Origin: Brachybacterium endophyticum
GTDB taxonomy: Bacteria; Actinomycetota; Actinomycetes; Actinomycetales; Dermabacteraceae
DNA: 64,000 nt
Direction: 5' to 3'
NCBI RefSeq assembly: GCF_003130585.1
Contig: NZ_QFKX01000006.1
Span: forward strand, 124,001 to 188,000
Positions 5,104 to 59,116 of this stretch are shown here, piece after piece. The stretch's first letter is position 1; each line of letters opens with the position of its first letter. Under the pieces are notes generated by a model that was not told where the DNA came from, searched no databases, and was given only the letters and a program-made list of their open reading frames with translations. Made by a program: the position numbers and the translations under genes.

Positions 5104-5126
5104 GAACGCACGGAGAGGAGGCAGCC

Positions 5127-6104
5127 ATGAAGTATCTCGCCCGCAAGATCGGCCTGTACGCATTCATCGCCTGGGCGGCGCTGACCCTGAACTTCCTGAT
5201 CCCGCGCCTGATGCCCGGGGACCCCGTGACCCTTCTGCTGGAGGGCTCCCAGGGGGCGATCGACCCCGCCGCGAAGGCGGCCATCGCCAAGGCCTACGGC
5301 ATCAGCGACGACCCGCTCCCGGTGCAGTACGTCGACTACCTGAGGGCACTGGCGCACGGCGACCTCGGCACCTCCATCAGCCAGTTCCCGGTGCCGGTGG
5401 TCGACATCATCTCCCGGGCCCTGCCGTGGACCCTGGGGCTGGTGGGCGTGGCGACCGTGGTCAGCTTCCTGCTGGGCACCGGGCTCGGCGTGCTGCTGGC
5501 CTGGCGGCGCGGCACCTGGTCCGACCACGTGCTGCCGGCCCTCACCTTCCTCAACGCCATCCCGTACTTCTGGATGGCGCTGATCCTGGTGCTGGTGCTG
5601 TCGGTGCACCTGGGCCTGTTCCCCAACGCCGGCGGCTACGAGCGGATCCTGTTCCCGGGCTGGACCCCGCAGTTCATCGGCTCGATCCTCTACCACGCCC
5701 TGCTGCCGGCGATCACGATCGTCCTGGGCTCCTTCGCCGGCTGGGTGCTCTCGATGCGCAACATGACGGTCACCGTGCTGGGCGAGGACTACGTCTCGCT
5801 GGCGGAGGCCAAGGGCCTGCCCTCGCGGCACGTGCTGCTGACCTACGCGGCCCGCAACGCGATCCTGCCCTCGATCACCGGCTTCGCCCTCTCCCTCGGC
5901 GCAGTCGTCGGCGGATCGATGCTCACCGAGGTCATCTTCAACTACCCCGGGGTGGGGTACACGCTGTTCAGCGCCGTGCAGGCCCAGGACTTCCCGCTCA
6001 TGCAGGGGCTCTTCCTCATCATCTCCCTCGCGGTGATCGCCGCGAACCTGGTGGCCGACGTCGCCTACGTGTTCCTCGACCCGCGAACCCGGCAGGGGGC
6101 CTGA
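5127..6104 (+). CDS. ABC transporter permease (DppB family)
   Basis: 325 aa, about six transmembrane segments. It starts at ATG with GGAGAGGAGG just upstream. The N-terminal helix, the periplasmic segment ending in DLGTSISQFPVPV, and the EAA cytoplasmic loop (LAEAKGLPSRHVLLTYAARN) place it in the DppB/OppB family. It pairs with the permease half of the following fusion protein. The gap to the next gene is only 3 bases. Confidence 0.92.
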   Translation: MKYLARKIGLYAFIAWAALTLNFLIPRLMPGDPVTLLLEGSQGAIDPAAKAAIAKAYGISDDPLPVQYVDYLRALAHGDLGTSISQFPVPVVDIISRALPWTLGLVGVATVVSFLLGTGLGVLLAWRRGTWSDHVLPALTFLNAIPYFWMALILVLVLSVHLGLFPNAGGYERILFPGWTPQFIGSILYHALLPAITIVLGSFAGWVLSMRNMTVTVLGEDYVSLAEAKGLPSRHVLLTYAARNAILPSITGFALSLGAVVGGSMLTEVIFNYPGVGYTLFSAVQAQDFPLMQGLFLIISLAVIAANLVADVAYVFLDPRTRQGA

Positions 6105-6107
6105 CCC

Positions 6108-7976
6108 ATGTCCATCTCGAGCCTCGTGCCCCGCAGCGGGAAGGTCCGCGCCGGACTGATCATCGTCCTGGTCTTCGTGCTGATCGCCCTGATCGGACCG
6201 CTGACCGCGACCCACGCCCCGCAGGCGACCTCCTTCGACCTGCGCCAGGCGCCCTCGGCCCGGCACTGGATGGGCACCACCCAGACCGGGCAGGACGTCT
6301 ACGCCCAGTTCGTCACCGGTGCCCGCGTGTCCCTGCTGGTGGGTCTCGTCGCGGGCGTCGTCTCCCAGGTGTTCTCCGTGATCATCGGGCTGCTCGGCGG
6401 GTACCTGCGCGGCGTCGCCGACGACCTGCTCTACATCCTCACCGCCGTGTTCCTGGTGATCCCCGGGATGCCGCTGCTGATCGTCCTCACCGGCTACCTG
6501 CCCAGCCGCGGGCTGTTCGCGATCGCCGTGGTCATCGCGATCACCTCCTGGGCCGGTTCGGCCCGCGTGATCCGCGCCCAGACCATGTCGCTGAGCGGCC
6601 GCGAGTTCGTCGAGGCCGCCCGGGCCGGCGGCGAGTCCCGGCTGCGGATCATGTTCGCCGAGGTGCTGCCGAACATGCTGCCGCTGGTCGCCTCCGGCTT
6701 CCTGTTCTCCGTCATCGGCGGCATCCTCTCCGAGGCCGGACTGTCCTTCCTCGGCCTGGGGTCGCTGACCACGGTCTCCTGGGGATCGATGCTCTACTTC
6801 GCCCAGAGCGGCCAGGCGCTGCTCTCCGGCGCCTGGTGGTGGTACGTGCCGCCGGGCCTCGCGATCGCGATCATCGGCGCGGGCCTGGCGCTGATCAACT
6901 TCGGCATCGACGAGTACGCGAACCCGCGTCTGCGGACCGGCGCGGCGCGACGTCACGCCGCGCGGGGATCCCTCGCCGCCGGTGCGGACCCGACCGCCGC
7001 CGACGCCGCTGCCGGCGGCACCGAGCTCCCGGCCGGGGGAGCCGGCGGACCCGCTGCCGCGGCGGCGACGACCCGCGCGGGGGCCGCTGGGACATCCGGC
7101 AGCGGCGCCGCGCTCGCCGACACCGTCCCCGACGCGGACCCGGTCATCCGAGCGGCGGACGTCACCGGCGATCCGGTGATCGAGGTCGACGCCCTCAGCG
7201 TGGACTACCCGACCGTGCACGGCACCGTGCACGCGGTGGACGGGGTGACGCTGACCCTGCACCGCGGGGAGATCCTGGGGCTGGCCGGGGAGTCGGGCAG
7301 CGGGAAGTCCACGCTGACCAACGCGATCACCCGGATGCTGCGGCCGCCCGCCCGGATCGCGGGCGGCGCTGTCACCTACACGGACGCAGACGGCACCCGC
7401 ACCGACCTGCTCGCCCTGGACGACCGCGGCCTGCGCGGGATCCGCTGGACCGAGATCGCGGTGGTCTTCCAGAGCGCCATGAACGCCCTGAACCCGGTGA
7501 CGTCGATCGGCTCCCAGTTCGACGACGTGATCCGCGTGCACCGTCCCGACCTGGGGCCCACTCGCCGCACCGAGCTGGCCCGCGAGCACCTGCGGCGGGT
7601 GGGGATCGACCCCGAGCGGATCGGCGCCTACCCCCACGAGCTCTCGGGCGGGATGAAGCAGAGGGTCGCGATCGCGATCGCCCTGGTCCTCGAACCCGAC
7701 GTGATCTTCATGGACGAGCCCACCACGGCCCTGGACCTCCTGGTCCAGCGCGAGGTGCTCGACCAGATCGTGCGGCTGCGCGAGGAGTACGGCTTCGCGA
7801 TCGTGTTCACCACCCACGACCTCGCGCTGCTGCTGGAGATCTCCGACTCGATCGCCGTGATGCGACGGGGCCACCTCGTGGAGTACGGCCCCGCCGCCGA
7901 GATCTACCGCTACGCCCGCCACCCCTACACCAGGAGTCTCCTGGACTCCCTCGAAGCACTCGGGAGCCTCGCATGA
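6108..7976 (+). CDS. DppC-type permease fused to DppD-type ATPase
   Basis: 622 aa in one frame. Residues 1-270 are a DppC-like permease with about five or six membrane helices and the EAA loop (REFVEAARAGGESRLRIMF). Residues ~272-350 are an Ala/Gly/Thr-rich linker. Residues ~355-620 are an ABC ATPase: Walker A GESGSGKS at 394-401, signature LSGGMKQRVAIA from 512, Walker B IFMDEPTTALD after it. These parts are usually separate genes in peptide importers. No stop or start interrupts the linker. The stop overlaps the next ATG by 4 bases. Confidence 0.9.
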   Translation: MSISSLVPRSGKVRAGLIIVLVFVLIALIGPLTATHAPQATSFDLRQAPSARHWMGTTQTGQDVYAQFVTGARVSLLVGLVAGVVSQVFSVIIGLLGGYLRGVADDLLYILTAVFLVIPGMPLLIVLTGYLPSRGLFAIAVVIAITSWAGSARVIRAQTMSLSGREFVEAARAGGESRLRIMFAEVLPNMLPLVASGFLFSVIGGILSEAGLSFLGLGSLTTVSWGSMLYFAQSGQALLSGAWWWYVPPGLAIAIIGAGLALINFGIDEYANPRLRTGAARRHAARGSLAAGADPTAADAAAGGTELPAGGAGGPAAAAATTRAGAAGTSGSGAALADTVPDADPVIRAADVTGDPVIEVDALSVDYPTVHGTVHAVDGVTLTLHRGEILGLAGESGSGKSTLTNAITRMLRPPARIAGGAVTYTDADGTRTDLLALDDRGLRGIRWTEIAVVFQSAMNALNPVTSIGSQFDDVIRVHRPDLGPTRRTELAREHLRRVGIDPERIGAYPHELSGGMKQRVAIAIALVLEPDVIFMDEPTTALDLLVQREVLDQIVRLREEYGFAIVFTTHDLALLLEISDSIAVMRRGHLVEYGPAAEIYRYARHPYTRSLLDSLEALGSLA

Positions 7977-8842
7977 GCATCGCCGCGCCCACGCACGACA
8001 CCTCCGGATCCCCGACCGCGGGCGAGATCGTCCTCGAGGGGACGCACCTGGTCAAGGAGTACGCCGTGGGGGAGCGGCGCGGGGTGCTGCGTCGCCGTCG
8101 CACGATGCGCGCGGTCGACGACGTCTCCCTCGGTCTGCGCCGGGCGGAGGTCACCGCCCTGGTCGGTCAGAGCGGCTCGGGCAAGTCCACGCTGGGCCGG
8201 CTGCTGGCCCGGCTGGTCCCGCTCACGTCCGGCGACATCAGGCTGCACGGCAGCGACGTCGGGGCCGCGACCGGCGCGTCGATGCGCCGTTACACCGGCG
8301 AGGTCCAGCTCACCCTGCAGGACCCCTTCGCCTCGTTGAACCCGCTGCGCCGCGTCGACTACATCCTGGGCCGGGCCGTGCGACTGCACCAGGACGTCTC
8401 CGGGGCCGACGAGGTCCGGGCACGCTGCGCCGGCCTCCTCGAACGCGTGGGGCTGGGCCCGACCGATCACTACCTGGACCGCTTCCCCCACGAGCTCTCC
8501 GGCGGTGAGCGCCAACGGGTCTCGTTCGCGCGGGCGCTCGCCGCGGGCCCGTCGGTGCTGCTGGCCGACGAACCCGTCTCGATGCTCGACGTCACGATCC
8601 GCAAGTCCATGCTCGACCTCATCGACGACCTGCGGCGCGAGGAGGACCTCGCCGTCCTCTACATCACGCACGACCTGGGCAGCGCCCGGCGTTACTCGAG
8701 CGAGGTGCTGGTCATGCACGAGGGCAGGGTCGTCGAGCGCGGCGAGTCCGAGAGCGTCATCTCGGATCCCCAGGACGCGTACACGAAGCGTCTGCTGGCG
8801 GCCGCACCGGATCCGTCCCGCTCGCTGGGCCGCTCGCGCTGA
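7973..8842 (+). CDS. ABC transporter ATP-binding protein (DppF family)
   Basis: 289 aa. Walker A GQSGSGKS at 65-72, Q-loop region TLQDPFASLNPLR, signature LSGGERQRVSFARAL and Walker B VLLADEPVSMLDV are all present. It is the second ATPase of the importer and partners with the ATPase half of the preceding fusion protein. The start overlaps the previous stop (ATGA). Its last 86 bases overlap the 3' end of the converging VanZ-like gene. Confidence 0.92.
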   Translation: MSIAAPTHDTSGSPTAGEIVLEGTHLVKEYAVGERRGVLRRRRTMRAVDDVSLGLRRAEVTALVGQSGSGKSTLGRLLARLVPLTSGDIRLHGSDVGAATGASMRRYTGEVQLTLQDPFASLNPLRRVDYILGRAVRLHQDVSGADEVRARCAGLLERVGLGPTDHYLDRFPHELSGGERQRVSFARALAAGPSVLLADEPVSMLDVTIRKSMLDLIDDLRREEDLAVLYITHDLGSARRYSSEVLVMHEGRVVERGESESVISDPQDAYTKRLLAAAPDPSRSLGRSR

Positions 8843-9197
8843 TCCGCCGCTCACCCCACCAGGTGAGGAGACCGATGCCGATCCCGAGCAGGTCGGAGAG
8901 GACGTCGAGGGGGTCGGCCGAGCGGTGCGGCAGCAGCAGGCCCTGCAGCACCTCGATCAGGAGCGCATGGACCACGGCGGCCAGCACCACCCAGCCGATG
9001 GGGAACCTCGAGGCGGGGGCGAGCACGCGGCCGACGGCCCAGACCGTGAGCGCGAAGACGCCCACGTGGTAGAGGGTGTCGATCCCGCCCACCCCGCCGG
9101 TCGAGGGGACGCTGGGAAGGTAGAAGCCCACGTTCGCCAGCAGGGCGAGAGCGCACAGGACCAGGCGGCCCGTGCGAGAGCGCAGGAGCTCCCTCAT
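8757..9197 (-). CDS. VanZ-family membrane protein
   Basis: 146 aa. Four hydrophobic segments are visible, with the family pattern DTLYHVGVFALTVW, LIEVLQGLLLPHRSADPLDVLSDLLGIGIGLL. VanZ-like proteins are small membrane proteins; the founding member gives low-level teicoplanin resistance, and the function of most members is unknown. The ATG overlaps the stop of the upstream serine hydrolase gene (ATGA), so the two form an operon. The last ~25 codons are hydrophilic and run into the end of the converging ATPase gene. Confidence 0.82.
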   Translation of the reverse strand: MRELLRSRTGRLVLCALALLANVGFYLPSVPSTGGVGGIDTLYHVGVFALTVWAVGRVLAPASRFPIGWVVLAAVVHALLIEVLQGLLLPHRSADPLDVLSDLLGIGIGLLTWWGERRISASGPASGTDPVRPPADASCTRPGDPR

Positions 9198-10321
9198 GCC
9201 GTGCCCGCCCGGGCGAAGGCCTGGCGTGCGATCTCGCGCCGCGCCTCCAGCACCTCGAAGCGGTCGCGGCGCGGGTGGACGCGGTTGGTCAGCAGCACGG
9301 CGACGGTGCCCTCGGCCGGATCGGCCCACAGCGCCGTGCCCGTGAACCCGGGGTGGCCCACCACGGTCGTCTGGACGGACCCGTCGGGCAGTTCCTGGCC
9401 GATCCGCACGCCCAGTCCCTGACGCCACGGCGCGTCGGTCGTGACGGAGGCGGTGAGCTGGTCGCGGGCCATCTCCGCGCGCAAGCCCTGCGAGAGCACG
9501 GGCCCCGGTGCGCGGCCGGCGAGCACCCGGGCGATCGCGAGGGCGTCCTCCAGGGTCGCGAACAGGCCGGCGTTGCCCACGCCTTCCAGCACCCAGGCGG
9601 TCTCGTCGTGGACCTCGCCGCGCACGAGACCGCGCGGGGGATCCTCCGCGTACTCGGTGGCGACCGTCCGCGAGCGTGCCGCCGCGTCCGGCCACCAGGT
9701 GGCGGTCGCGGCACCGGCGGGCGCGAGCACGCGGCGGCGTGCCAGCTGCGGCAGGTCCTCGCCGCCGAGGCGGGTGAGGATCTCGCCGAGCAGGATGAAG
9801 CCGATGCACGAGTAGGCGTGGGTGGTGCCCGGTGCGGCGTGCAGGGCGGCCCCACCGACCTCCGCCAGGCGTTCCTCGCGCGTGCCCTGGATCCGCCACA
9901 GGGGCATCGTCGGCGGCAGTCCGGCCGTGTGGGTGAGGAGGTGGCGCACGGTGATGCGCGCGTCCGGGACCAGGCGCGGCCCCAGATGGTCGATCGCGAG
10001 GTCGCCCAGGCCCAGGGCGCCCTCGTCCAGGAAGGTCGCGGCGGTGAGGGCCGTGACCACTTTGGTCACCGAGGCCATGTCGAACAGCGAGCTGGCATAG
10101 ACGTCGGTCACCGACCGGTCGACGTCGGGGCCGGAGTCGTCCGGCAGCGCCGTGCCGTCCTCGGCGAAGCTGACCGTGCGTCCGCCCGACCGCGTGATCG
10201 GCTCGCTCCCCGGGCGGTCGATCGCGGCCGCGACCGCGCCCGCACCCTCGATGCCTCCCGTGCGCGCCCTCTCCAGCAGTCCGTCCACGAGCGTGCCGAG
10301 CTCTGTCGCTGTGGTGGTCAT
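9194..10321 (-). CDS. Serine hydrolase, beta-lactamase/class C (AmpH-like) family
   Basis: 375 aa, no signal peptide. Seen: SxxK motif S84-V-T-K87, second motif Tyr170 (YSC), and HPGFTG as the third motif, with the fold signature HLLTHTAGLP. The family includes D,D-peptidases, esterases and class C beta-lactamases; activity cannot be assigned from sequence. A beta-lactamase-fold gene (ybbE) also sits in the Bacillus subtilis namZ region, so the neighbour NamZ gene suggests a role in peptidoglycan salvage. It is transcribed with the VanZ-like gene. Confidence 0.88.
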   Translation of the reverse strand: MTTTATELGTLVDGLLERARTGGIEGAGAVAAAIDRPGSEPITRSGGRTVSFAEDGTALPDDSGPDVDRSVTDVYASSLFDMASVTKVVTALTAATFLDEGALGLGDLAIDHLGPRLVPDARITVRHLLTHTAGLPPTMPLWRIQGTREERLAEVGGAALHAAPGTTHAYSCIGFILLGEILTRLGGEDLPQLARRRVLAPAGAATATWWPDAAARSRTVATEYAEDPPRGLVRGEVHDETAWVLEGVGNAGLFATLEDALAIARVLAGRAPGPVLSQGLRAEMARDQLTASVTTDAPWRQGLGVRIGQELPDGSVQTTVVGHPGFTGTALWADPAEGTVAVLLTNRVHPRRDRFEVLEARREIARQAFARAGTA

Positions 10322-10418
10322 GGGGGAGCCCTTCCTCTCCGGGGACCGGATGGATGTCCGATCCTTCCACGCCGACTACTCTCGGGGGTGAGAACGCCCG
10401 CCTCGGAAGGAGCCCTCC

Positions 10419-10796
10419 ATGCCCTCGACCTCGGATCCCGACCGCCTCGACCCGTACCGCGAGGACCCCGGGGCAGCCCCCGGTTCGACCGCTGTCCTGG
10501 ACCGCGACGTCAAGGAGCGGGAGGAGAAGACCGACGACGGCGACCACGACCGCTTCGCCCACTACGTGCGCCGGGACAAGATCACCCAGGCCGCCCTCGA
10601 CGGCAGCCCGGTGATCGCGCTCTGCGGCAAGGTCTGGGTCCCGGGGCGGGACCCCAAGAAGTACCCCGTGTGCCCGGAATGCAAGGAGATCCACGACGGT
10701 CTTCGCGAACCCAACGACGGGGGCGACGGCGACTCCGGCAAGGGCGGCGGCTCCGGTCGCGGCGGCTTCCGGGGCTTCTTCGGCGGGCGTCGCTGA
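10419..10796 (+). CDS. DUF3039 domain-containing protein
   Basis: 125 aa, cytoplasmic. The conserved core is FAHYVRRDKITQAALDGSPV followed by ALCGKVWVP and YPVCPECKEIH. Cys69, Cys85, Cys88 and His92 could bind a metal. The tail is Gly-rich and basic. It begins after GGAAGGAG, with a TACTCT -10-like box some 45 bases upstream. The family is actinobacterial and of unknown function, often next to this helicase, as here. Confidence 0.85.
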   Translation: MPSTSDPDRLDPYREDPGAAPGSTAVLDRDVKEREEKTDDGDHDRFAHYVRRDKITQAALDGSPVIALCGKVWVPGRDPKKYPVCPECKEIHDGLREPNDGGDGDSGKGGGSGRGGFRGFFGGRR

Positions 10797-10835
10797 CCCG
10801 CCGTCGGATCCTCTGAGCAGGCGGCGGGTCGTCGG

Positions 10836-10861
10836 CCCCGGGCGCGTCACGGCGCCCGGGG
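10836..10861 (+). terminator. Hairpin terminator after the DUF3039 gene
   Basis: A perfect 10-bp inverted repeat (CCCCGGGCGC / GCGCCCGGGG) with a 6-nt loop, 40 bases after the stop. Confidence 0.6.
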
Positions 10862-10920
10862 CGGCGATTCCTCACATGCCCCGGGCGGCGCCGCGGACGC
10901 CGGATGTCCGAGCGCGGCGG

Positions 10921-10936
10921 TAGCCTGGTCCGCGCT
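10921..10936 (+). promoter_or_regulatory. -10 box for a leaderless helicase transcript
   Basis: TAGCCT at 10921-10926 lies 10 bases before GTG 10937, the spacing expected when transcription starts at or beside the start codon. This favours GTG 10937 over an in-frame ATG at 10904, which would lie upstream of the promoter. Confidence 0.5.
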
Positions 10937-12751
10937 GTGAAACCACCACTGACGACTCCCTCCAACGACCCGCACCGGCCCTCGACCGCGGCGGCCCAGT
11001 CCCTTCCCCCGGCGTACCCGGAGAGGGCAGCCTGGGGCACCGCGCAGAAGCTGCGAGCCTGGCAGTCCGAGGCCCTCGAGATGTACCAGGAGCGCAGCCC
11101 GAAGGACTTCCTGACGGTCGCGACCCCCGGCGCCGGCAAGACCACCTTCGCCCTCCAGATCGCCGCGATGTTGCTCGCCCAGGGCGTCGTGCGCCGGGTG
11201 ACGGTGGTGGCACCGACCGAGCACCTGAAGACCCAGTGGTCCGACTCGGCCGCTCGCGTGGGCATCTCGCTGGATCCGAACTTCACCAACGCCCAGGGCC
11301 GCCACGGCGCCCACTACCAGGGCGTCGCGATCACCTACGCGCAGGTCGGCATGAACCCGATGCTCCACCGCGCCCGCACCGAGGCCGAGCGCACTCTGGT
11401 GATCCTCGACGAGATCCACCACGCCGGTGACGCCCTGACGTGGGGCGACGGCGTGCGCGAGGCCTTCGACCCGGCGACCCGCCGTCTCGCGCTGACGGGC
11501 ACGCCCTTCCGATCGGACGACTCCCAGATCCCGTTCGTGACCTACGAGGAGGACGGCGAGGGCTTCCTGCGCTCGCGCGCCGACTACTCCTACGGCTACG
11601 CGGACGCGCTCCGCGACCACGTCGTGCGTCCCGTCATGTTCGTGACCTACTCGGGTCGCATGCACTGGCGCACCAAGACCGGCGACGAGGTCTCCGCCCA
11701 GCTCGGGGCGATCGAGACCAAGGACATCACCCAGCAGGCCTGGCGCACCGCGCTCGACCCCAAGGGCGAGTGGGTCCAGGCCGTCCTCGCCGCGGCCGAC
11801 AGGCGCCTCACGGAGATGCGCCGGCACGTCCCGGACGCCGGCGGCCTGGTCATCGCGACCGACCAGAAGACCGCCCGCGCCTACGCCGCGACCCTCGAGC
11901 AGATCACCGGTGAGCAGGTCACCACCGTCCTGTCCGACGACGCCGGTGCGGGCAAGCGCATCGAGGCCTTCTCCGACTCGACCGATCGCTGGATGGTCGC
12001 CGTGCGCATGGTCTCCGAGGGCGTGGACGTGCCCCGCCTGGCGGTGGGCGTGTACGCGACCTCGACGGCGACGCCGATGTTCTTCGCCCAGGCCGTCGGC
12101 CGCTTCGTGCGCTCGCGGACCCGCGGCGAGACCGCGAGCATCTTCCTGCCCTCGGTCCCGATCCTGACCGCGCACGCCGCCGCCATGGAGGAGGAGCGCG
12201 ACCACGTCCTGGACCGTCGCCCGCCCGAGGGCGACCCGGAGACAGGACTGGACGACCACCTGGTCGAGGAGGCCAACCGCCCCGAGCAGACCTCCGACCA
12301 GCTCGAGCTCTCCTTCGAGGCGCTGGAGTCCCAGGCGTCCTTCGACCGTGTCCTCTTCGACGGCGGCGAGTACGGCGCCGGGGGAGAGGCCGGCAGCGAG
12401 GACGAGCAGGAGTTCCTGGGGATCCCCGGGCTCCTGGACGCCGACCAGATGCGCACGCTGCTCCAGGAGCGTCAGGCGACCCAGCAGGCCCGCCGCTCGA
12501 AGAACGGCGGCACCGCCGGCAGCGAGGCCGATCGCGAGATCCCCGTGGTGGACCATCGACGGCTGATGGACCTGCGCAAGGAGCTCTCCTCGCTGGTCTC
12601 GGCCTGGGCCCGCAAGTCCGGTACACCGCATGGCCAGGTCCACACCGCCCTGCGCTCCCGCTGCGGGGGTCCCGCCGTCCCGCAGGCCAGCGCCGAGCAG
12701 ATCCAGGACCGCATCGCCGTCGTGCGAGGGTGGTTCGTCGGGCGCAAGTGA
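10937..12751 (+). CDS. DEAD/DEAH-box (superfamily 2) helicase
   Basis: 604 aa from the GTG; an upstream ATG would add 11 residues. Motif I TPGAGKTTFALQ, motif Ia VVAPTEHLKTQW, motif II (DEIHH, a DExH type), motif III ALTGTPFRSD, then a helicase C domain with MVSEGVDVPRLAVG and AQAVGRFVRSR. It belongs to the UvsW/RecG-like group of SF2 proteins common in Actinobacteria beside DUF3039. A long acidic region (about 435-515) follows the helicase core. Substrate unknown. Confidence 0.9.
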   Translation: MKPPLTTPSNDPHRPSTAAAQSLPPAYPERAAWGTAQKLRAWQSEALEMYQERSPKDFLTVATPGAGKTTFALQIAAMLLAQGVVRRVTVVAPTEHLKTQWSDSAARVGISLDPNFTNAQGRHGAHYQGVAITYAQVGMNPMLHRARTEAERTLVILDEIHHAGDALTWGDGVREAFDPATRRLALTGTPFRSDDSQIPFVTYEEDGEGFLRSRADYSYGYADALRDHVVRPVMFVTYSGRMHWRTKTGDEVSAQLGAIETKDITQQAWRTALDPKGEWVQAVLAAADRRLTEMRRHVPDAGGLVIATDQKTARAYAATLEQITGEQVTTVLSDDAGAGKRIEAFSDSTDRWMVAVRMVSEGVDVPRLAVGVYATSTATPMFFAQAVGRFVRSRTRGETASIFLPSVPILTAHAAAMEEERDHVLDRRPPEGDPETGLDDHLVEEANRPEQTSDQLELSFEALESQASFDRVLFDGGEYGAGGEAGSEDEQEFLGIPGLLDADQMRTLLQERQATQQARRSKNGGTAGSEADREIPVVDHRRLMDLRKELSSLVSAWARKSGTPHGQVHTALRSRCGGPAVPQASAEQIQDRIAVVRGWFVGRK

Positions 12752-12815
12752 GCCCGGCCCGCACCCGTTGTCCACACTCGCTTCGCACCTGTGTTCGGCT
12801 GCCAGGTGCACTTCG

Positions 12816-12821
12816 TAGAAT
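12816..12821 (+). promoter_or_regulatory. -10 promoter element of clpS
   Basis: TAGAAT, one mismatch from the consensus. Transcription would begin near 12828, downstream of the in-frame ATG at 12823, so the GTG at 12859 with its own ribosome site is the better clpS start. Confidence 0.5.
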
Positions 12822-12858
12822 CATGATCCAGCCCCGCTCCGCACGGAAGGAGGACGCC

Positions 12859-13194
12859 GTGGAGGGACACGACCCCGCGATCGACCCGGACCGCACCAGC
12901 CGGCCCGTCGGTGTCCTCGATCCCGAGGAGGACTCCCTCCTCGAGGGCGTGGACGACGGGCCCTGGCAGACCGTGGTCTGGAACGACCCGGTCAACCTCC
13001 AGAGCTATGTCGTCCACGTCTTCCGCACCTACTTCGGCTTCAGCCGCTCGCGTGCCCATCAGCTGATGATCCAGGTGCACGAGCAGGGGCGCGCCGTCGT
13101 CTCCCGGGGCTCGCGCGAGCGCGTCGAGTCCGATGTGCAGGCCATGCATTCCTTCGGGCTGCGGGCCACCCTCGAGCGCACGGAGGAGGACTGA
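12859..13194 (+). CDS. clpS: ATP-dependent Clp protease adaptor ClpS
   Basis: 111 aa from GTG 12859, which follows GGAAGGAGG by about six bases. ClpS hands N-degron substrates to the ClpAP/ClpCP protease. Seen: the core WQTVVWNDPVNLQSYVVHVF with the ligand-pocket NDP, and the helix HQLMIQVHEQGRAVVSRGSRE. Length fits the family after a disordered N-terminus. The stop overlaps the start of the DUF2017 gene by one base, an arrangement conserved in Actinobacteria. Confidence 0.93.
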   Translation: MEGHDPAIDPDRTSRPVGVLDPEEDSLLEGVDDGPWQTVVWNDPVNLQSYVVHVFRTYFGFSRSRAHQLMIQVHEQGRAVVSRGSRERVESDVQAMHSFGLRATLERTEED

Positions 13195-13841
13195 TGGCCC
13201 ACGCGTTCCGTCCCCGCCCCGGCGGGGAGGTCGCCTGCCGGTTGGAGAGCGAGGAGAAGGCGATCATCTCCCAGGTCGCCCAGGAGGTCGGCGAGCTCAT
13301 CCGCCACGACCTCGACCTGCGCGAGGACGCCGAGCCGGTCCGGGAGGCCGCCGGGTCCGCGGATCCGCTCGAGCGGCTGGAGGCCGAGTACGCCTCCCGC
13401 ACGCCGCGCAGTCCGCGCGACAGCGCCGTCAGTCGTCTGTTCCCCGCTGCGAGCGAGGACCCCGCGGTCGCCGAGGAGCTGCGGCGTCTGGGTCAGGCCG
13501 ATCTCGCCGAGCAGAAGCTCGAGGATCTCGGAGCGCTGGTGCGCACGCTCGATGGGAGCGGCCCCGGCAGCAGCGAAATCAGCATCGACGAGGACGCCGT
13601 TCCCGGCTGGCTGCGAGGGCTGACGGACATGCGTCTGGTCCTGGCCGATCGGCTGCAGATCACCCAGGACGGGGATTTCGAGACCCTCCAGATGCTGCAG
13701 CAGATCGGGGAGCGGGTCCCCGAGGCCCAGCCCGTCGAGGACGAGGACGACCAGGTCGCCGGGAGCGACGTCGTCGCCGCCGTCTACGAGCTGCTGACCT
13801 GGCTGCAGGAGAGCCTGCTGCGCGCGATCGAGGACTACTGA
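13194..13841 (+). CDS. DUF2017 domain-containing protein
   Basis: 215 aa, acidic and predicted cytoplasmic. It begins with [18 protein letters not shown] and has the family pattern of two helical parts, ending [17 protein letters not shown]. Function unknown. It is translationally coupled to clpS, which suggests a link to Clp-dependent proteolysis (inference). Confidence 0.85.
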
Positions 13842-13935
13842 CCACCGCCCCGACGGCAGTCCGTCTCGTGTGATGTCCCGCGCACTGAGCGCGGCGTCAC
13901 TGAGAGCTGGGAAGAACCTCCCTACTCTGGGGCAG

Positions 13936-14751
13936 ATGAGCAACGCGCCGATCGGGATCTTCGACTCCGGGGTCGGGGGCCTGACGGTCGCCCGGGCGAT
14001 CCTGGACCAGCTCCCGCGCGAGCAGCTCCTCTACATCGGGGACACCGCGCACACGCCCTACGGGCCCCGCCCCATCGCGGAGGTGCGTGCGCTGGCGCTG
14101 TCGATCATGGACGACCTCGTCGAGCGCGGCGTGAAGATGCTCGTGATCGCCTGCAACACCGCGAGCGCCGCCGTGCTGCGCGACGCCCGCGAGCGCTACG
14201 ACGTCCCCGTCATCGAGGTCATCCAGCCCGCCGTGCGCCGAGCCGTCGCCGCCACCCGCAACGGTCGGATCGGCATCATCGGCACCGCCGCCACCGTGGC
14301 CTCCCGCGCCTACGAGGACGCCTTCGCCGCCGCGCCCGCGCTGCAGATCACCTCTGCCGCCTGCCCGCGCTTCGTCGAGTTCGTCGAGCGCGGGGAGATC
14401 CAGGGCGACGAGATCATCGCCGCCGCCGAGGAGTACCTCGCGCCCGTCCAGGAGGCGGGGGTGGACACCCTGGTGCTGGGCTGCACGCACTACCCGATGC
14501 TCGCCGGGCCGATCAGCCTGGTGATGGGCCCCGAGGTCACCCTGGTCTCCTCCGCCGAGGAGACCAGTCTCGACGTCTACCGCCAGCTGCGCATGGCCGG
14601 CATCCAGCGCACCGAGACCGCCCCGCCGGCGCACGTCTTCGCGGAGACCGCCGCCGCCGACGGCACCCCCTCGATGTTCTCCCGCCTCTCGCGCCGGTTC
14701 CTCGGACCGGCCGTGACCATGACCTCGACACTCCCGGTGGTGACACCATGA
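13936..14751 (+). CDS. murI: Glutamate racemase
   Basis: 271 aa. Interconverts L- and D-glutamate for peptidoglycan. The two catalytic cysteines are present: Cys73 in ACNTAS and Cys183 in GCTHYP; the N-terminal [11 protein letters not shown] is the family signature. ATG 13936 is chosen because a TACTCT -10-like box lies about 10 bases upstream, pointing to a near-leaderless transcript. The stop overlaps the next ATG by four bases. Confidence 0.95.
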
Positions 14752-15542
14752 GACTGACCGTGATCGGCTGCTGCGGCAGCTTCGCCGGCCCCACCGGCAC
14801 CGCCTCGAGCTACCTGCTGGAGCAGGAGGACGAGACCGGCCGCACCTGGCGAGTGCTGATGGACCTGGGCAGCGGCGCCTTCGGGCCGCTGCAGGCGCAG
14901 ATCGACCCCGCCACGCTCGACGCGGTGGTGATCTCGCACCTGCACCCCGACCACTTCCTGGACCTCACCGGCCTCGAGGTGTTCTGGGCGTACAACTCGC
15001 GCGAGCTGCCGCGCCTGCCGATCCACGCACCCGACGGGCTCGCCCAGCGTCTGCGCTCGGTGCTCGGGCGCGAGGGGGACGTCCCGGACGGCGTCACCTG
15101 CCTGCCCTTCGATCACCGTCCGATCCACGACGGCCAGGACATCGAGATCGGCCCGTTCCACTTCGAGATCGGCGCCGTCCGCCACACCGTGCCCTCCTAC
15201 GGGATGCGCGTGAGCGCGGGCGGGAGCGTGCTGACCTACTCGGGCGACACCGACACCTGCGACCGTCTCCTCGAGCTCGCGAGGGATGCCGACGTGCTGC
15301 TGTGCGAGGCCGGGTACATCGAGGGCCGCGACGACCGCTTCTCGGGCGTCCATCTGACCGGAAGCCGCGCCGGCGAGGCCGCCACCGCGGCCGGTGCCCG
15401 CAGTCTCGTGCTCACCCACATAGCGCCCTGGACCGACCCCGCGGTGTCCCTCGCCGAGACCCGCGAGACCTACCACGGCCCCATCACGATGGCCGAGCCC
15501 GCTCTCGTCGTGGAGACCGAGACGGTCCGCGCCTCGCACTGA
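14748..15542 (+). CDS. MBL-fold metallohydrolase
   Basis: 264 aa. Metal motif [10 protein letters not shown] gives His64, His66, Asp68 and His69; further ligands are in [17 protein letters not shown] and LTHIAPW. This is the RNase Z-like/AtsA-like part of the family, often found between murI and rph in Actinobacteria. It is probably a cytoplasmic phosphodiesterase; the substrate is not identifiable. Confidence 0.9.
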
Positions 15543-54360: not shown

Positions 54361-54579
54361 ATGATCATCGCCTTCTCCGTCCAGCCCACCGGTGAGCCCT
54401 CCGACCCCGAGGTCGTGCGCGATCTCGCCGAGGGGTCCGACGCCGCCAGCGTCCACGACGCGGTCGCCGCCGCCGTGCAGGTGGTGCGCGACTCCGGCCT
54501 CCCCAACCGCACCAGTTCGATGTTCACAAGTATCGTCGACCTAGGACATGGGTCTTTCATCCGGCCCGCAGGAATCTGA
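54361..54579 (+). pseudogene. Thiamine-binding protein (UPF0045), 5' part, split by the island
   Basis: MIIAFSVQPTGE to NRTSSMFT is the N-terminal half of a YkoF/MTH1187-type thiamine-binding protein. Homology ends at ~54527, then ten or so island codons run to a stop at 54579. Its missing half lies 4.4 kb away (58940-59116) in the same frame. The truncated frame ends 13 bases before the ATG of the island's own intact copy. Confidence 0.85.
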
Positions 54580-54592
54580 GGAGGGAACCGCC

Positions 54593-54904
54593 ATGTTGCT
54601 TGCATTCTCCGTTGCCCCGTCCGGAACTGGCCGCGAAGATGGATCAGTCCACGATGCTGTCGCTGCCGCAGTGAAGGTCGTCCGCGACTCCGGTTTGCCC
54701 AATAGGACGTCGAGCATGTTCACCGAGGTTGAAGGTACCTGGGATGAGGTCTTCGGCGTGGTGAAGCGTGCTACAGAGGCCGTTGAGCCATTCGGCTCGC
54801 GGGTCTCTCTCGTCATCAAGGCTGACATTCGTCCGGGCTACGAGGGCGAGCTGGACGCCAAGGTCGAACGGCTCGAACAGGCGATCTCGGAGTCGGATGA
54901 GTAG
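54593..54904 (+). CDS. Thiamine-binding protein (UPF0045), island copy
   Basis: 103 aa, complete: MLLAFSVAPSGTG, VHDAVAAAVKVVRDSGLPNR, WDEVFGVVKRATEAVEPFGS, and VSLVIKADIRPGYEGELDAK. Ferredoxin-like fold that binds thiamine or HMP. It is divergent from the native copy and has lower GC and different codon use, so it is foreign. GAGGAGGG precedes the ATG. It sits so that the old promoter can transcribe it. Confidence 0.88.
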   Translation: MLLAFSVAPSGTGREDGSVHDAVAAAVKVVRDSGLPNRTSSMFTEVEGTWDEVFGVVKRATEAVEPFGSRVSLVIKADIRPGYEGELDAKVERLEQAISESDE

Positions 54905-54964
54905 TAACTGCTCCCGCAGCCGTCCGAGACGGTGATCCTCAACTGGACGTGCTCTCGATGCGAT

Positions 54965-54996
54965 GGGCCTCCTCGTCCCTCATGACGAGGAGGCCC
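54965..54996. terminator. Hairpin between the island tbp copy and the recombinase remnant
   Basis: Perfect 12-bp inverted repeat GGGCCTCCTCGT/ACGAGGAGGCCC, 8-base loop, between converging frames; the recombinase stop lies within it. Confidence 0.7.
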
Positions 54997-55474
54997 CCGC
55001 GTTTTCCTCGGATACCACGCCGAGCACAGCCCCCACGGAGACGCCAGTGGTTGCTCCGATCTCGCGGATGGACTGGCCCCGTTCCCGACGAGCGAGGATG
55101 ACAGTGCGCTTGTCATCGTCGATCACCCGCGGCCGCCCACCGACCTTGCCGCGCTTCCGCGCTGCCTCCAGCCCGTTCTTCGTCTTGCGGACGATGTCGC
55201 GACGGCGATCCTCGGCCAATGCGAGCGCGAGGTCGAGGATCAGCGACCGCTCGGTGTGCTCGCCGGCCGCAATGCCCTCTAGTACCTTCACGGCGATGCC
55301 GCGCTCGAACAGATCGGTCAGGACGATGAGCCCTTCCAGGGGATTGCGACCGAGCCGGTCGACCTCCTGGACCGTGAGCATGTCGCCGTCCCTCATGTAC
55401 TCGATCGCCTCGCGGAGCCCCGGACGGGCATCGACATCGAGCTTGCCGCTGACCTTCTCCTCGAAGACCTTCAC
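54980..55474 (-). pseudogene. Serine recombinase (resolvase family), N-terminus and catalytic Ser missing
   Basis: 164 aa from GTG 55474: VFEEKVSGKLDVDARPGLRE, VDRLGRNPLEGLIVLTDLFE, then a helix-turn-helix end IREIGATTGVSVGAVLGV. Upstream codons in frame read SRQHDALDSIC, still resolvase-like, and a stop is met at 55535, so the VGYARVST start with the active serine is absent. Probably inactive; it marks the island as mobile once. Confidence 0.85.
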
Positions 55475-55566
55475 GCAGATGGAGTCGAGGGCGTCGTGCT
55501 GCCGAGACGTCTCCCGAGGCGTTCCAGCGCGCGGTCAATGGGGCTCACGAGGGCGACGACCTCCCG

Positions 55567-55797
55567 GTGCAGATCACCGTGCGCCAGGCCCAGAAGATCG
55601 CCGCGATCATGGGAGCAGTCGCCCGCGGCCATTCCGGCTACACCGACGCGCTGCGCGACGTCTCATGGTTCCTCGACGCCGTGGTGGCCGAAGGCCGGCC
55701 GCACACGGTCGTGTCGCGCTCGGCGTCCGAGCTGTGGGCCGTCGTCGACGCCTGGCCCTGGCCCCGACCTGGCAAGCCGAAGGACAACGCCGAGTAG
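55567..55797 (+). CDS. Hypothetical protein (island)
   Basis: 76 aa from GTG; the frame is open further upstream (AAETSPEAFQRAVNGAHEG), so a longer protein may be truncated at the recombinase junction. ITVRQAQKIAAIMGAVARGH and TVVSRSASELWAVV suggest a plasmid or ICE-type accessory protein. No known function. Confidence 0.5.
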   Translation: MQITVRQAQKIAAIMGAVARGHSGYTDALRDVSWFLDAVVAEGRPHTVVSRSASELWAVVDAWPWPRPGKPKDNAE

Positions 55798-55837
55798 ACC
55801 ACCCGGCAGCGCCCGATGTTCCCGCGACGATGAACCC

Positions 55838-56170
55838 GTGGGAACGAACAAGCGCTACCCCCACCTCCCTGCGCAGAGGGGTGAAGAGCGAGAGCTACGC
55901 GAGGCGCGGAAGCGTGGACCGCCGCGCACCCTCGACTCGCTCCAGCTGCGACTACACGCGCAGCCCCTCACGATCGTTCCCGAGCAGGTGACGATATGGG
56001 GTCACGCCTGGCTCCAGTTCGGAGATACGAACGTGCGGTGCGTCGTCCAGGTGAAGCGATGGACGGCCGACGCCGTGGGCGTCCAGATGACGATCGACGG
56101 CGACAAGCTGCGGTGCAGGATATGGCAGGTCGCATACCAGCGGATCTCGGACCCGACCGACGTCTGGTAG
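55838..56170 (+). CDS. Hypothetical protein (island)
   Basis: 110 aa from GTG 55838: GTNKRYPHLPAQRGEERELR, RCVVQVKRWTADAVGVQMTI. Resembles actinobacterial plasmid/ICE hypotheticals that begin MGTNKRY. Predicted soluble. Function unknown. Confidence 0.55.
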   Translation: MGTNKRYPHLPAQRGEERELREARKRGPPRTLDSLQLRLHAQPLTIVPEQVTIWGHAWLQFGDTNVRCVVQVKRWTADAVGVQMTIDGDKLRCRIWQVAYQRISDPTDVW

Positions 56171-56276
56171 CCCTGCCGCAAACGATCGTCTACGGCGGAG
56201 CCGCCTCGTGATCGCTGAAAAAGTCGGCGCGTCGTTCCGCTACCCACGACGCACTATCCATGGGACGATCGGCCGT

Positions 56277-56426
56277 ATGAGTACCCCGATCATCGCCATC
56301 GTCTGCGCCCTCGGAGTCATTGTTCCACTGGCGCTCGATGCCTACAAGAACTTCGACGCCAGGTCCAAGGGTTGGACCAAGGTCCTCATCAAGCCCGGCA
56401 ACTCGAACGGAAAGAAGGAAAACTGA
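56277..56426 (+). CDS. Small membrane-anchored protein (island)
   Basis: 49 aa from ATG 56277: STPIIAIVCALGVIVPLALD is one membrane helix, then KNFDARSKGWTK. It ends with a Lys-rich tail just before the PfpI start (GAAGGA). Could be a leader or membrane peptide; GC is low. Confidence 0.5.
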   Translation: MSTPIIAIVCALGVIVPLALDAYKNFDARSKGWTKVLIKPGNSNGKKEN

Positions 56427-56427
56427 G

Positions 56428-56997
56428 ATGGCAGCAGATCTTCAGGGCAAGAGGGTCGCGATCCTCGCCGCCGACGGAGTCGAACGCGTTGAGCTCGAGC
56501 AACCCCGCGAAGCACTGGAACGGGCCGGCGCTCAGACCGAGGTCCTCTCGATCCACGACGGCGAGATCAAGGCCCGTAAGAACGACCTGGACGAAGCGGG
56601 CACGTTCACCGTCGACGGGTTGGTCGCCGACGCCTCGGCGGGCGACTACGACGCCCTGCTGCTTCCCGGCGGCACGGTGAACCCCGACCAGCTCCGGGTC
56701 GACAAGGACGCCGTTTCCTTCGTCCGCGACTTCGTCGAGAGTGGCAAGCCCGTGGCGGCGATCTGTCACGGGCCCTGGACATTGATCGAGGCTGGCGTGG
56801 TCGGAGGTCGCACCTTGACGTCCTTCCCGAGCATCCGCACGGACCTGCGCAACGCCGGTGCGGACGTCGTCGACCAGGACGTCGTGGTCGACGGGAACCT
56901 GATCACCAGCCGCTCACCCGACGACCTGCCTGCGTTCTGCGATACGATCGTGGCGAAATTTGCGAGCAATTCGACCCAGGCAGAGGTGACGTCATGA
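56428..56997 (+). CDS. DJ-1/PfpI family protein (YhbO-like)
   Basis: 189 aa. Class I glutamine-amidotransferase-like fold: Cys113-His114 in AICHGPW, GGTVNPDQLR, and VAILAADGVERVEL with the catalytic-site Glu. Deglycase, glyoxalase or chaperone roles are known in the family. It overlaps the next gene by four bases. Confidence 0.92.
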   Translation: MAADLQGKRVAILAADGVERVELEQPREALERAGAQTEVLSIHDGEIKARKNDLDEAGTFTVDGLVADASAGDYDALLLPGGTVNPDQLRVDKDAVSFVRDFVESGKPVAAICHGPWTLIEAGVVGGRTLTSFPSIRTDLRNAGADVVDQDVVVDGNLITSRSPDDLPAFCDTIVAKFASNSTQAEVTS

Positions 56998-57296
56998 GCG
57001 TGACGAAGGGACTGCTTGTCAGGCTGGAGGCCCTGCCCGGCAAGGAAGACAAGGTCCAGGAATTTCTCGGCATCGGGCGAGGGCTCGTCGAGGAGGAACC
57101 GGCCACCATCGCGTGGTTCGCGATCCGTCTCGGCCCGTCCTCATTCGGGATCTTCGACGTGTTCCCCGATGGCGCCGGCCGCGACGCGCACCTGTCCGGC
57201 GCAGTCGCTGCCGCTCTCGGCGAGCAGACCGGCAAACTGTTCAGCGAACCGACGATCGAGAAGCTCGACGTCCTGGGCTCCAAACTCCCCGCCTGA
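56994..57296 (+). CDS. Putative quinol monooxygenase (ABM domain)
   Basis: 100 aa. Dimeric alpha-beta barrel: VTKGLLVRLEALPGKEDKVQ, TIAWFAIRLGPSSFGIFDVF. Family members act on quinones or aromatic substrates. Coupled to the PfpI gene (ATGA). Confidence 0.85.
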   Translation: MSVTKGLLVRLEALPGKEDKVQEFLGIGRGLVEEEPATIAWFAIRLGPSSFGIFDVFPDGAGRDAHLSGAVAAALGEQTGKLFSEPTIEKLDVLGSKLPA

Positions 57297-57328
57297 CACC
57301 ACAGAACGGGAGTACTGGCCCAGAAAGG

Positions 57329-57392
57329 AGGGGTCGCTGCGCGCGGTGACTTCGGGCTTACACAGCCCGCTGACGTCGTGGTAGCGGCCCCT
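57329..57392 (+). other. Structured 5' leader of the FAD oxidoreductase gene
   Basis: AGGGGTCGCT pairs with AGCGGCCCCT (one mismatch) around an inner CGGGCT/AGCCCG stem, 45 bases before the start codon. Could be a terminator of the upstream genes or a regulatory leader. Confidence 0.35.
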
Positions 57393-57437
57393 TCTCTTGC
57401 GGTCTATCGCTAATCACCAACAGATCGGGGAACCGCG

Positions 57438-58568
57438 ATGACACGAACTGACGACGGCGTTGCCACGACGCGTTCACCCGAGGTAGCAGTGATCGGGGGC
57501 GGGATCGTCGGTCTGTCGACGGCGTACGCGCTGCGGGAGCAGGGCGTGCCGGTGCGCTTGTACGAGGCTGGTCTGCCCGGGACGGGTCAGTCCGCAGGCG
57601 AGGCGCGGATCTTCCGGCATGCCCACGACGACCCGCGACTCGTCGCTTTCGCGCGCGAAAGCCGCGGCGTATGGGATGAGTGGGCCGAACACTTCGACGT
57701 CGAGCTGGTCTCATCAGACGGTGTCCTGGCGATCGGAGACAGCGCCCTGGCGCGGCTGCGGGTGCTCGACCAGGTCGGCGGCGTGGAAGCGCACGAGATC
57801 GACGCGGCCGAGGTCGCCCAGCGGATGCCGCTGCTCGCTGGGTACTCGGGGCCAGCGGTGCTCGACGAGTCGGGCGGCGCGATCCGTACCCGAGCCGCGA
57901 TCACGGCACTCACGGGTGCCCTCGCAGATGCGGTCACCACCGGTGAGGTCATCTCCATCGATCCCCGCGCCGACGGGACGGTCGAGGTGCGCAGCGTCAC
58001 CGACCGGGCTGTCTACTCCAAGGTGGTCGTGTGCGCCGGCCGCGAAACCGCCCGCCTGGCACGCAGCGTCGGCCTGTCGCTGCCGGTTCGCCTTGCCGCA
58101 CACGTCAGGCTGACCTTCGACGTGAAAGCCGCCGCCCCGGCACGAGTCGCGTGCCTGCAGGACAGCAGCGGCGTCTTCGGCGAAGTCGGCGTGTACGCGA
58201 CGCCGCTACCGGGCAACAGCAACTATTCGGTCGGACTCAGCGACACAGTCGGCGTCCGCGACGACGGAACTTTCATCGACCCGGCGGCGATTCGATCGCT
58301 GGACGAACGCGCCCGCGAATACGTGACACGGGCGCTGCCCGGTCTCCACCCAGAGCCGCGCGACTTCCTTCACTGCTGGGTGACCGACCTCCCGTGGAGT
58401 GAGGACGGCGTGGCCGTGTGGGAGGCAGGCTCTGTCCTTTTTGTGGCCGGTCACAATTTGTTCAAGCAGGCACCTGCGCTGGGTCGCGCTCTTGCCCGGG
58501 CTGCGACCGGCGGCGGTCTCCACGCCGAGCTCACGCCCGAAGCGCGCCTCGGCGAGGCCCAGAGCTAG
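57438..58568 (+). CDS. FAD-dependent oxidoreductase (DAO/sarcosine oxidase type)
   Basis: 376 aa. FAD loop VAVIGGGIVGLSTAYALRE, EARIFRHAHDDPRL near the covalent/active-site region, VCAGRETARLARSVG, VFVAGHNLFKQAPALGRALA at the end. Family oxidises amines or amino acids (sarcosine, glycine, N-methyl-tryptophan). Substrate unknown. Last intact gene of the island. Confidence 0.88.
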   Translation: MTRTDDGVATTRSPEVAVIGGGIVGLSTAYALREQGVPVRLYEAGLPGTGQSAGEARIFRHAHDDPRLVAFARESRGVWDEWAEHFDVELVSSDGVLAIGDSALARLRVLDQVGGVEAHEIDAAEVAQRMPLLAGYSGPAVLDESGGAIRTRAAITALTGALADAVTTGEVISIDPRADGTVEVRSVTDRAVYSKVVVCAGRETARLARSVGLSLPVRLAAHVRLTFDVKAAAPARVACLQDSSGVFGEVGVYATPLPGNSNYSVGLSDTVGVRDDGTFIDPAAIRSLDERAREYVTRALPGLHPEPRDFLHCWVTDLPWSEDGVAVWEAGSVLFVAGHNLFKQAPALGRALARAATGGGLHAELTPEARLGEAQS

Positions 58569-58580
58569 GGCGTGTCCCCC

Positions 58581-58604
58581 AATCGCGGGGGGTGACCCGC
58601 GATT
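58581..58604 (+). terminator. Short hairpin after the FAD oxidoreductase gene
   Basis: Perfect 9-bp repeat AATCGCGGG/CCCGCGATT with a 6-base loop, 12 bases after the stop. Confidence 0.6.
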
Positions 58605-58620
58605 CTGGCCGGCAAACTGT

Positions 58621-58666
58621 CGAGTGTGTCGCTGTGCGATGTTCAGATCGCACAGCGACACACTCG
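58621..58666. repeat. Perfect 20-bp inverted repeat
   Basis: CGAGTGTGTCGCTGTGCGAT and its exact complement, 6-base loop GTTCAG, between the FAD oxidoreductase and the UvrA remnant that converge on it. Likely a two-way terminator, but its length is unusual and it could be a recombination site of the island. Confidence 0.7.
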
Positions 58667-58939
58667 TCACATTGGGGTCACGTTGGTGGCTGCCTGCAGT
58701 GCGGCGGCAAGGTAGCCCGCGGAAGCACCGACGCTCTTGTCCGCGACGTAGGCGGGCGTACCAGCTGCAACCACGGTCCCGCCGGCGTCGCCCGCGCCGG
58801 GTTCAAGATCGATCACGTGATCGGCCACCGCGACAACGCGCATGTCCAGCTCCGCGGCGACGACCGTGTTGCCCGCATCGAGCAGCGGTTCGTCCTGGCC
58901 AGGGTTCCTCGCAGCGGCGGTCGAACAACGACCACCCAC
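58667..58939 (-). pseudogene. UvrA-like protein, C-terminal remnant
   Basis: Reads LLDAGNTVVAAELDMRVVAV, ADHVIDLEPGAGDAGG, TVVAAGTPAYVADKS, the very end of a UvrA-type ABC ATPase (switch His replaced: VVAAELDM in place of VVEHDM). The gene would have started to the right but is cut by the island border. Confidence 0.7.
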
Positions 58940-59116
58940 ACCGAAATCGAGGGGGAGTGGGACGAGGTCCTCGACGTCGTCAAGCGCGCCACCCAGGCGG
59001 CGGGGCGCTACGGATCGCGTGTCTCCCTCGTGCTGAAGGCGGACATCCGGCCCGGGCACGAGGGCGAGCTCGACGGGAAGATCGAGCGCCTGGACGACGC
59101 CCTCGACCGCCGCTGA
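58940..59116 (+). pseudogene. Thiamine-binding protein, 3' part
   Basis: TEIEGEWDEVLDVVKRATQA, SRVSLVLKADIRPGHEGELD, ending DALDRR. It is the missing C-terminal half of the gene begun at 54361, in the same frame and with native high GC. No start codon or promoter is visible, so it is not expressed on its own. Confidence 0.85.

Follow-up and report, generated by a model that had tools for sequence, protein, structure and literature searches.

Gene-restoring integrative elements reconstruct the end of their target (icd, prfC or a tRNA gene, for example), either by in-frame fusion or by identity at the attachment site. The large serine recombinase phages phiC31, Bxb1 and TG1 simply break their target gene. 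In the regulated gene integrity elements a split gene is rebuilt by excision of the element; skin is one of these, and the gin element of gerE is reportedly another. We analysed a stretch of 64,000 nucleotides (nt) from Brachybacterium endophyticum (assembly GCF_003130585.1, contig NZ_QFKX01000006.1, positions 124,001 to 188,000 of the forward strand), hereafter the window, in which a 4.4-kb (4412 bp) island lies inside a gene for an MTH1187-type thiamine-binding protein (PF01910; here "thiB") and carries a complete thiB of its own. This is very probably a site-specific island whose attachment site is joined to a foreign, complete thiB, so that the host gene is broken and replaced; the enzyme is assigned by analogy.

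As with the gene-restoring elements, the function of the target gene would not be lost on integration. Those elements rebuild one end of a gene, whereas the window island supplies a whole separate gene and would rely on a restart instead of a fusion. In the regulated gene integrity elements, too, a mobile element associated with a site-specific recombinase splits a gene; they restore that gene on excision, whereas the island replaces it and stays. Yangvirus phages of Arthrobacter and one related island (G686), both described below, use the same enzyme class as phiC31, Bxb1 and TG1, and all have their target within coding sequence, but phiC31, Bxb1 and TG1 simply break theirs. Gene restoration in general is already known, since one paper, citing earlier work, states that in many genomic islands the gene at the integration site is restored (PMC12884075). 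We found no report of a thiB-replacing serine-integrase insertion in islands or in Arthrobacter phages, in a literature coverage that lay outside most subscription journals.

A preliminary description made from the letters of the window alone had proposed that one gene lies in two halves around 4.4 kb of lower-GC (guanine plus cytosine) DNA and would rejoin in frame. This is the case. The island interrupts the Thr codon of an MFT motif after its second base, and the two halves joined end to end give a single frame of 113 amino acids (aa); even by itself, the left half matches PF01910 (E 1e-5). GC content is 66.5% in the island, 70.9% in the 5-kb flanks and 60.6% in the replacement copy, and third-position GC is 69.9% in the copy against 94.5 and 93.2% in the host halves. 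The copy passes the PF01910 gathering score (88.3 bits, cut-off 24.9) and lies below the cut-off of NCBIfam TIGR00106 (44 bits, cut-off 54.7). A profile search of the window genome (G000) returned three thiB matches, all at the split locus, and no further thiB was found elsewhere in that whole-genome search. The same description placed an intact, divergent copy 13 bases after the stop of the broken frame, with a good ribosome site, and we agree: the host frame continues for 16 codons past the left junction, up to a TGA (54577-54579) that merges into the copy's ribosome site, with 13 nt including GGAGGG between this TGA and the copy's ATG. The features concerned are the following.

54361 to 54527, plus strand: left half of host thiB, PF01910; joined to the right half, it groups among Brachybacterium genes
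54526 to 54527, no strand: AC dinucleotide of the left junction, presumed crossover (left attachment site, attL); identity to the other three island genomes rises sharply here
54528 to 54592, plus strand: island left end, with a 24-nt arm AAGTATCGTCGACCTAGGACATGG, 16 host-frame codons, TGA and GGAGGG; related arms in L040, G243, L125 and L045 (see below)
54593 to 54904, plus strand: complete replacement thiB copy, 103 aa; PF01910 E 3.3e-25
58940 to 58941, no strand: AC dinucleotide of the right junction, presumed crossover (right attachment site, attR); identity step to the other island genomes
58940 to 59116, plus strand: right half of host thiB; stop TGA at 59114-59116

Relatives without the island have an intact site, as had been anticipated. 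Within Brachybacterium, thiB was matched in 32 of 38 genomes, 29 with one match and three with two halves plus a copy, and the stretch MFT-x-(I/L/V)EG is unbroken in 26 of the 27 intact loci read; the remaining locus escaped the search pattern. The expectation that the same island would be found in other genomes was also borne out. It occurs in the same gene, with identical junctions at the same nucleotide, in a further Brachybacterium (G002), in B. squillarum M-6-3 (G033) and in a Brevibacterium-like genome of another family (G119). This recurrence of one layout at a single nucleotide position excludes a chance arrangement. AC stands at both junctions in all four island genomes, as seen in their integrated forms only.

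Identity to the window changes abruptly at the junctions. In G002, G033 and G119, respectively, it is 83, 77 and 68% over the last 100 nt of the left half, 97, 94 and 95% over the first 65 nt of the island, 94, 98 and 98% over its last 280 nt, and 83, 70 and 72% over the first 100 nt of the right half. The islands of these genomes measure 3564, 2922 and 2942 bp and differ in their internal deletions. We computed two trees. The first had 128 rows. Two of these were dropped from the second (89 rows): NAT_L041agr, which is out of frame and sits on a branch of 4.2, and the decayed COPY_L125. For the second tree NAT_G033 was also trimmed, and the intact set was thinned by keeping alternate rows, except in Brachybacterium, Brevibacterium and a few G genomes; neither tree includes the host gene of G605. 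In the second tree the four island copies form one branch (support 99/95), placed among mostly Microbacteriaceae-type genes and not with Brachybacterium genes. The host thiB of the window, G002 and G033 groups with Brachybacterium (84/99 in the second tree, 100/98 in the first) and that of G119 with Brevibacterium; constraining the four host genes to one clade was rejected in the 89-row tree (approximately unbiased test, p-AU 0.027). Since identity falls at both junctions and the copies form one clade while the host genes do not, these comparisons argue that the island entered thiB by repeated, independent insertion in the four genomes and arrived separately in each.

Related arrangements occur in other Micrococcales and are uncommon. 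In one set of genomes thiB was matched in 303 of 396, at least six of them with the island or a relative, and in another in 250 of 329, at least three of them so; the multi-match genomes G052, G094, G160, G186 and G363 (first set) and G589 (second set) stand outside these island counts, and one of the two matches of G264 was read. A contig scan for thiB, covering the best 80 of 272 loci, yielded three loci with extra thiB pieces besides B. squillarum (L040, L041 and L045). We defined a gene-replacing insertion as a split host gene with a complete homologue no more than 100 bp after the left junction, on the same strand, and with the host frame ending between -4 and +14 nt from its start. With both halves, this arrangement is present in the window, G002, G033, G119, L040, L041, G686 and G605. 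L040 (Microbacterium paraoxydans) has both thiB halves, a copy and 9.5 kb with a Tmn/YobI-type nucleoside triphosphatase (NTPase), L041 (Agromyces agglutinans) a 0.8-kb island between near-identical stretches, G686 a 9.0-kb island and G605 a 7.3-kb island whose cargo looks defence-like by reading, in a genome with 9% contamination. The arrangement is partial in G243 (left half and copy, the right half lying outside the stretch read) and in G168 (copy and right half, the left half absent), and L045 fails on distance. In L045 (81-3272 and 3363-9847) two tandem large serine recombinases (62% identical) directly precede a seemingly frameshifted thiB N-half, and a second N-half lies reversed 6 kb on, an order that misfits a simple insertion model.

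The presumed crossover is the AC of the Thr codon in the window, G002, G033, G119, L040 and G243, and, 12 bp further along, the GG of the IEG codons in L041, G605, G686 and the phages discussed below. The gene-replacement insertion strategy suggested earlier recurs, as whole-gene replacement, in other islands and in temperate phages. Beyond that suggestion, the window island belongs to a family that uses two insertion points, 12 bp from each other, and is linked to a large serine recombinase where one is kept. The further suggestion that the island would always lie in this gene holds for the full arrangement and has to be limited to it, because L125 (G184, 4910-11184) lies outside thiB; its left end resembles that of the window island but has the core AG, and with it stand a copy in decay and a small serine recombinase of full length. 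L125 also has, 2.9 kb upstream, a large serine recombinase, which was considered as the missing integrase of the window type and rejected, because the core there is AG and not AC.

Two loci may be replacements that have gone to completion. In G168 (L122) the copy stands directly behind the host upstream gene, as if the N-halves had recombined. The single thiB of G096 (L126), which might go back to an old event, groups with the element copies and not with Brachybacterium genes.

The insertion point at GG is connected with a known enzyme class. In G686 the island has kept a gene for a large serine recombinase, 74 bp away from its right junction. The protein is about 484 aa long, or 504 aa if an earlier start is used, matches PF07508 above cut-off (54.1 bits) and is 62% identical to the integrase of phage Iter. 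Eight Arthrobacter phages of cluster AZ1, Yangvirus (Elezi, London, Niobe, Asa16, Eraser, Iter, Ascela and Nitro), carry a thiB. In all eight, thiB and the serine integrase gene are divergent, with the phage attachment site (attP) in the 54-64 bp between them, and the att core GAGGGCG is also found in a host thiB (A. globiformis NBRC 12137). As in the window, the thiB copy adjoins the attachment site, the core lies in the same host gene and the host frame is led into the copy. The differences are that Yangvirus is a full phage with its own integrase, that it inserts about 12 bp further, at the GG of the IEG codons, and that its thiB is nearer to Arthrobacter genes in the first tree. The island open reading frames examined (cargo, truncated recombinase and UvrA piece) include neither phage structural genes nor an integrase, and the window island is not a Yangvirus prophage. 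In the IMG/VR contig L141, a related integrase (65%) adjoins a thiB right half, and this looks like the edge of an integrated prophage. In the family of G243, 3 of 395 genomes have an Iter-type integrase (37-39% identity), with no thiB in the stretches read. Passages of three papers on AZ phages name the integrase, and the words attP, attB (bacterial attachment site) and thiamine are absent from these passages (PMC8758107, PMC10652945, PMC11600132). The first of these papers describes phage Powerpuff as forming stable lysogens (PMC8758107).

The host frame is led up to the copy with close spacing. From stop to start the gap is 13 nt in G002, G033 and G119 as in the window, 14 nt in L040 and G243, 9 nt in L041, 12 nt in G605 and -1 nt in G686. 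For eight of eight thiB phages, the predicted attL lets the host frame continue for 11 codons from the core, up to a TGA overlapping the phage ATG (ATGA). By contrast, in 18 of the 19 phages and contigs without thiB that were read, the frame already closes after EGA, at three codons from the core start. These 19 comprise 16 named phages, L136 (taken as DrManhattan) and two metagenome contigs, with L139 (taken as Yang) not counted twice; they belong to the 47 records that have a close integrase, and they are related phages and not independent trials. When spacers were shuffled with dinucleotides kept, the probability that at least seven of eight elements (the window, L040, G243, L045, L041, G686, G605 and Elezi) end the frame within -4 to +14 nt was 6e-5. 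The phages add little to this value, because the ATGA overlap follows once the frame is open; their weight is in the contrast with their relatives.

The copy appears to be maintained. Its DNA is 98.1-99.0% identical between the window and G002, G033 and G119, and pairwise the four copies differ at 3-6 synonymous and 0-2 non-synonymous positions (of about 78 and 231 sites). G184 has an intact native thiB (L124) and, at another place in its genome, a related left end with a copy (L125). This copy is without its ATG (a GTG comes after that position) and without many of the conserved residues, but has no internal stop. Such decay would be expected if selection acts on the copy only where the native gene has been replaced, here in a single case. 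Protein P0001, 99% identical to the window copy, represents 60 member sequences, and the island may be common in sequence collections.

We read the split gene, the copy and the attachment site together as a recurrent gene-replacing attachment module of islands and phages. Integration would be site-specific, at the Thr codon of MFT in thiB, and the physical linkage of the attachment site to a complete foreign thiB would break and replace the gene in one step. The host promoter and start codon would remain in place. A ribosome would then translate the N-terminal half, pass attL in frame and stop just before the copy's start (overlapping it in the phage version), where it could restart, so that host promoter and translation would pass to a copy that is presumably functional; the sequence gives such a takeover good support. 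The hairpin after the copy may separate the thiB unit from the cargo. In a wider and more tentative form, which we find plausible and stop just short of calling probable, attP plus thiB would be a portable docking module: different serine-recombinase elements, with at least two specificities 12 bp apart, would each have acquired the conserved MFT-x-IEGEW as target and a replacement thiB that is set into the host frame by stop/start coupling. The replacement would also tie the host to the element, because a non-exact loss of the island would cost the only working thiB.

Several observations weigh against this account. The window island contains a small serine recombinase, truncated, but no large one (Resolvase plus Recombinase domains), and no large serine recombinase common to the island-carrying genomes was found: G033 has no PF07508 match, the PF07508 proteins of G000 and G119 reach only about 26% identity, and the candidate frame picked in G002 is not recombinase-like. 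The sole PF07508 match of G000 lies 32 kb before the window start. Since the window island lacks such an enzyme, that of its type would be a large serine recombinase by analogy with the G686 element and the Yangvirus phages, and the island itself is probably a decayed or trans-mobilised derivative. The core dinucleotides and the dyad symmetry were assigned by eye. Both trees rest on 109-116 alignment columns; the Brachybacterium branch of the second (84/99) also includes two Glutamicibacter rows, and the intact row nearest to the copies is G096, from the window's own family outside Brachybacterium. The right half is out of frame in L041 and begins about nine codons late in G605. The gap of 45 nt in L045 is an exception to the close spacing, as is the phage Berrie among those without thiB, where the frame does not stop at once. 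The shuffle result is modest when AC-type left ends are counted once and L045 is taken as a miss (at least five of six, p 8e-4), and where a start is of the ATGA type, the overlap is in part a consequence of the open frame (shuffle probability 0.61 for G243 and 0.85 for Elezi).

The copy could instead be a passenger, brought in by an unrelated element that landed in thiB and happened to carry one, without selection for replacement. Among phage records with a close integrase, thiB occurs in only 9 of 47 (eight phages), which shows that these phages can do without replacement. In those read the attP core is the same whether thiB is present or absent, and thiB is therefore not needed for phage integration; the cargo of the window island is ordinary as well. 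We nevertheless consider a passenger unlikely. In the window, G002, G033, G119, L040, L041, G243, G605 and G686 the copy directly follows the left junction, points the same way and is reached by an open host frame, and the open frame of all eight thiB phages contrasts with the closed frame of 18 of the 19 relatives lacking thiB. The copy is also conserved, yet decayed in the one case (G184) where an intact native gene persists.

A single ancient insertion, passed on vertically or spread by homologous recombination in the flanking DNA, would account for the exactly shared junctions and the truncated UvrA piece in four of four island genomes, with their differing internal deletions, and would suit a window island that has no enzyme to insert again. 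Such a history would not leave identity falling at the junctions on both sides, nor a host gene in G119, from another family, that groups with Brevibacterium; crossovers would have been needed several times within short DNA that is 68-83% identical, and the matching flank stretches are 79-92% identical as opposed to about 92-99% in the island. We regard it as slightly less likely still than a passenger. Two adjacent thiB reading frames might also suggest a tandem duplication in the host followed by a transposon into one copy. This is hardly credible, given that the copy groups mostly with Microbacteriaceae-type genes and not with Brachybacterium, has a third-position GC of 70% against 94%, and, in the island genomes compared, is part of the inserted segment; relatives with a single gene have no second copy, and the empty sites contradict it. 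Gene replacement by a site-specific island remains the reading we prefer.

Replacement of this kind suggests a route by which a conserved coding sequence may serve as a landing site across genera without harm to the host, in that the gene is replaced and its expression signals are taken over; no match to each host's gene would be needed beyond the att site. The phages with close integrases and the same attP core, with and without thiB, offer a natural experiment on why some phages pay for the replacement. Where a serine integrase targets a conserved gene and brings its own rescue, it could serve for stable insertion in Micrococcales.

The rest of the window island consists of the following features.

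54957 to 55003, plus strand: strong terminator-like hairpin directly 3' of the copy; -35.9 kcal/mol for 54955-55015, z -5.8; kept in G002 and G033
54980 to 55474, minus strand: small serine recombinase (invertase/resolvase type), N-terminus missing; Pfam match from profile position 33; full-length homologue in L125
56428 to 56994, plus strand: cargo, DJ-1/PfpI family protein; profile match
56994 to 57293, plus strand: cargo, 100-aa protein with no family match; plasmid homologues annotated as antibiotic biosynthesis monooxygenase
57438 to 58568, plus strand: cargo, flavin adenine dinucleotide (FAD)-dependent oxidoreductase (DAO); profile match
58667 to 58939, minus strand: C-terminal piece of a UvrA-like gene, truncated by the right junction; E 2e-20 to a UvrA structure; at the island right end in four of four island genomes

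A consensus scan for promoters and terminators called none, the hairpin after the copy included. Other, related islands carry cargo of an anti-phage or anti-plasmid type: the Tmn/YobI NTPase of L040 occupies 10964-14803, and a related island at L153 has, by reading only, a probable DNA methyltransferase with neighbours. The window-type left-end pattern, which suits the window type only, was absent from all 398 genomes of a family judged to be Microbacteriaceae and present in 2 of 60 genomes in the family of G119. None of 117 island-similar plasmid records covers 80% of the island; eight plasmid records match thiB, and the 20 best of the 117 show mainly cargo or recombinase matches, one of them matching thiB. 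Viral contigs searched with the copy as query gave no relative. Matches among phage records pointed to Yangvirus. Two database records have a thiB that is unexpected from their names. MT835505.1 (L135), named Bacteriophage sp., has one inside the Brachybacterium clade of the first tree and looks like chromosomal DNA, and L092, filed under Stenotrophomonas maltophilia, has one of Microbacterium type in the same tree and is probably contamination.

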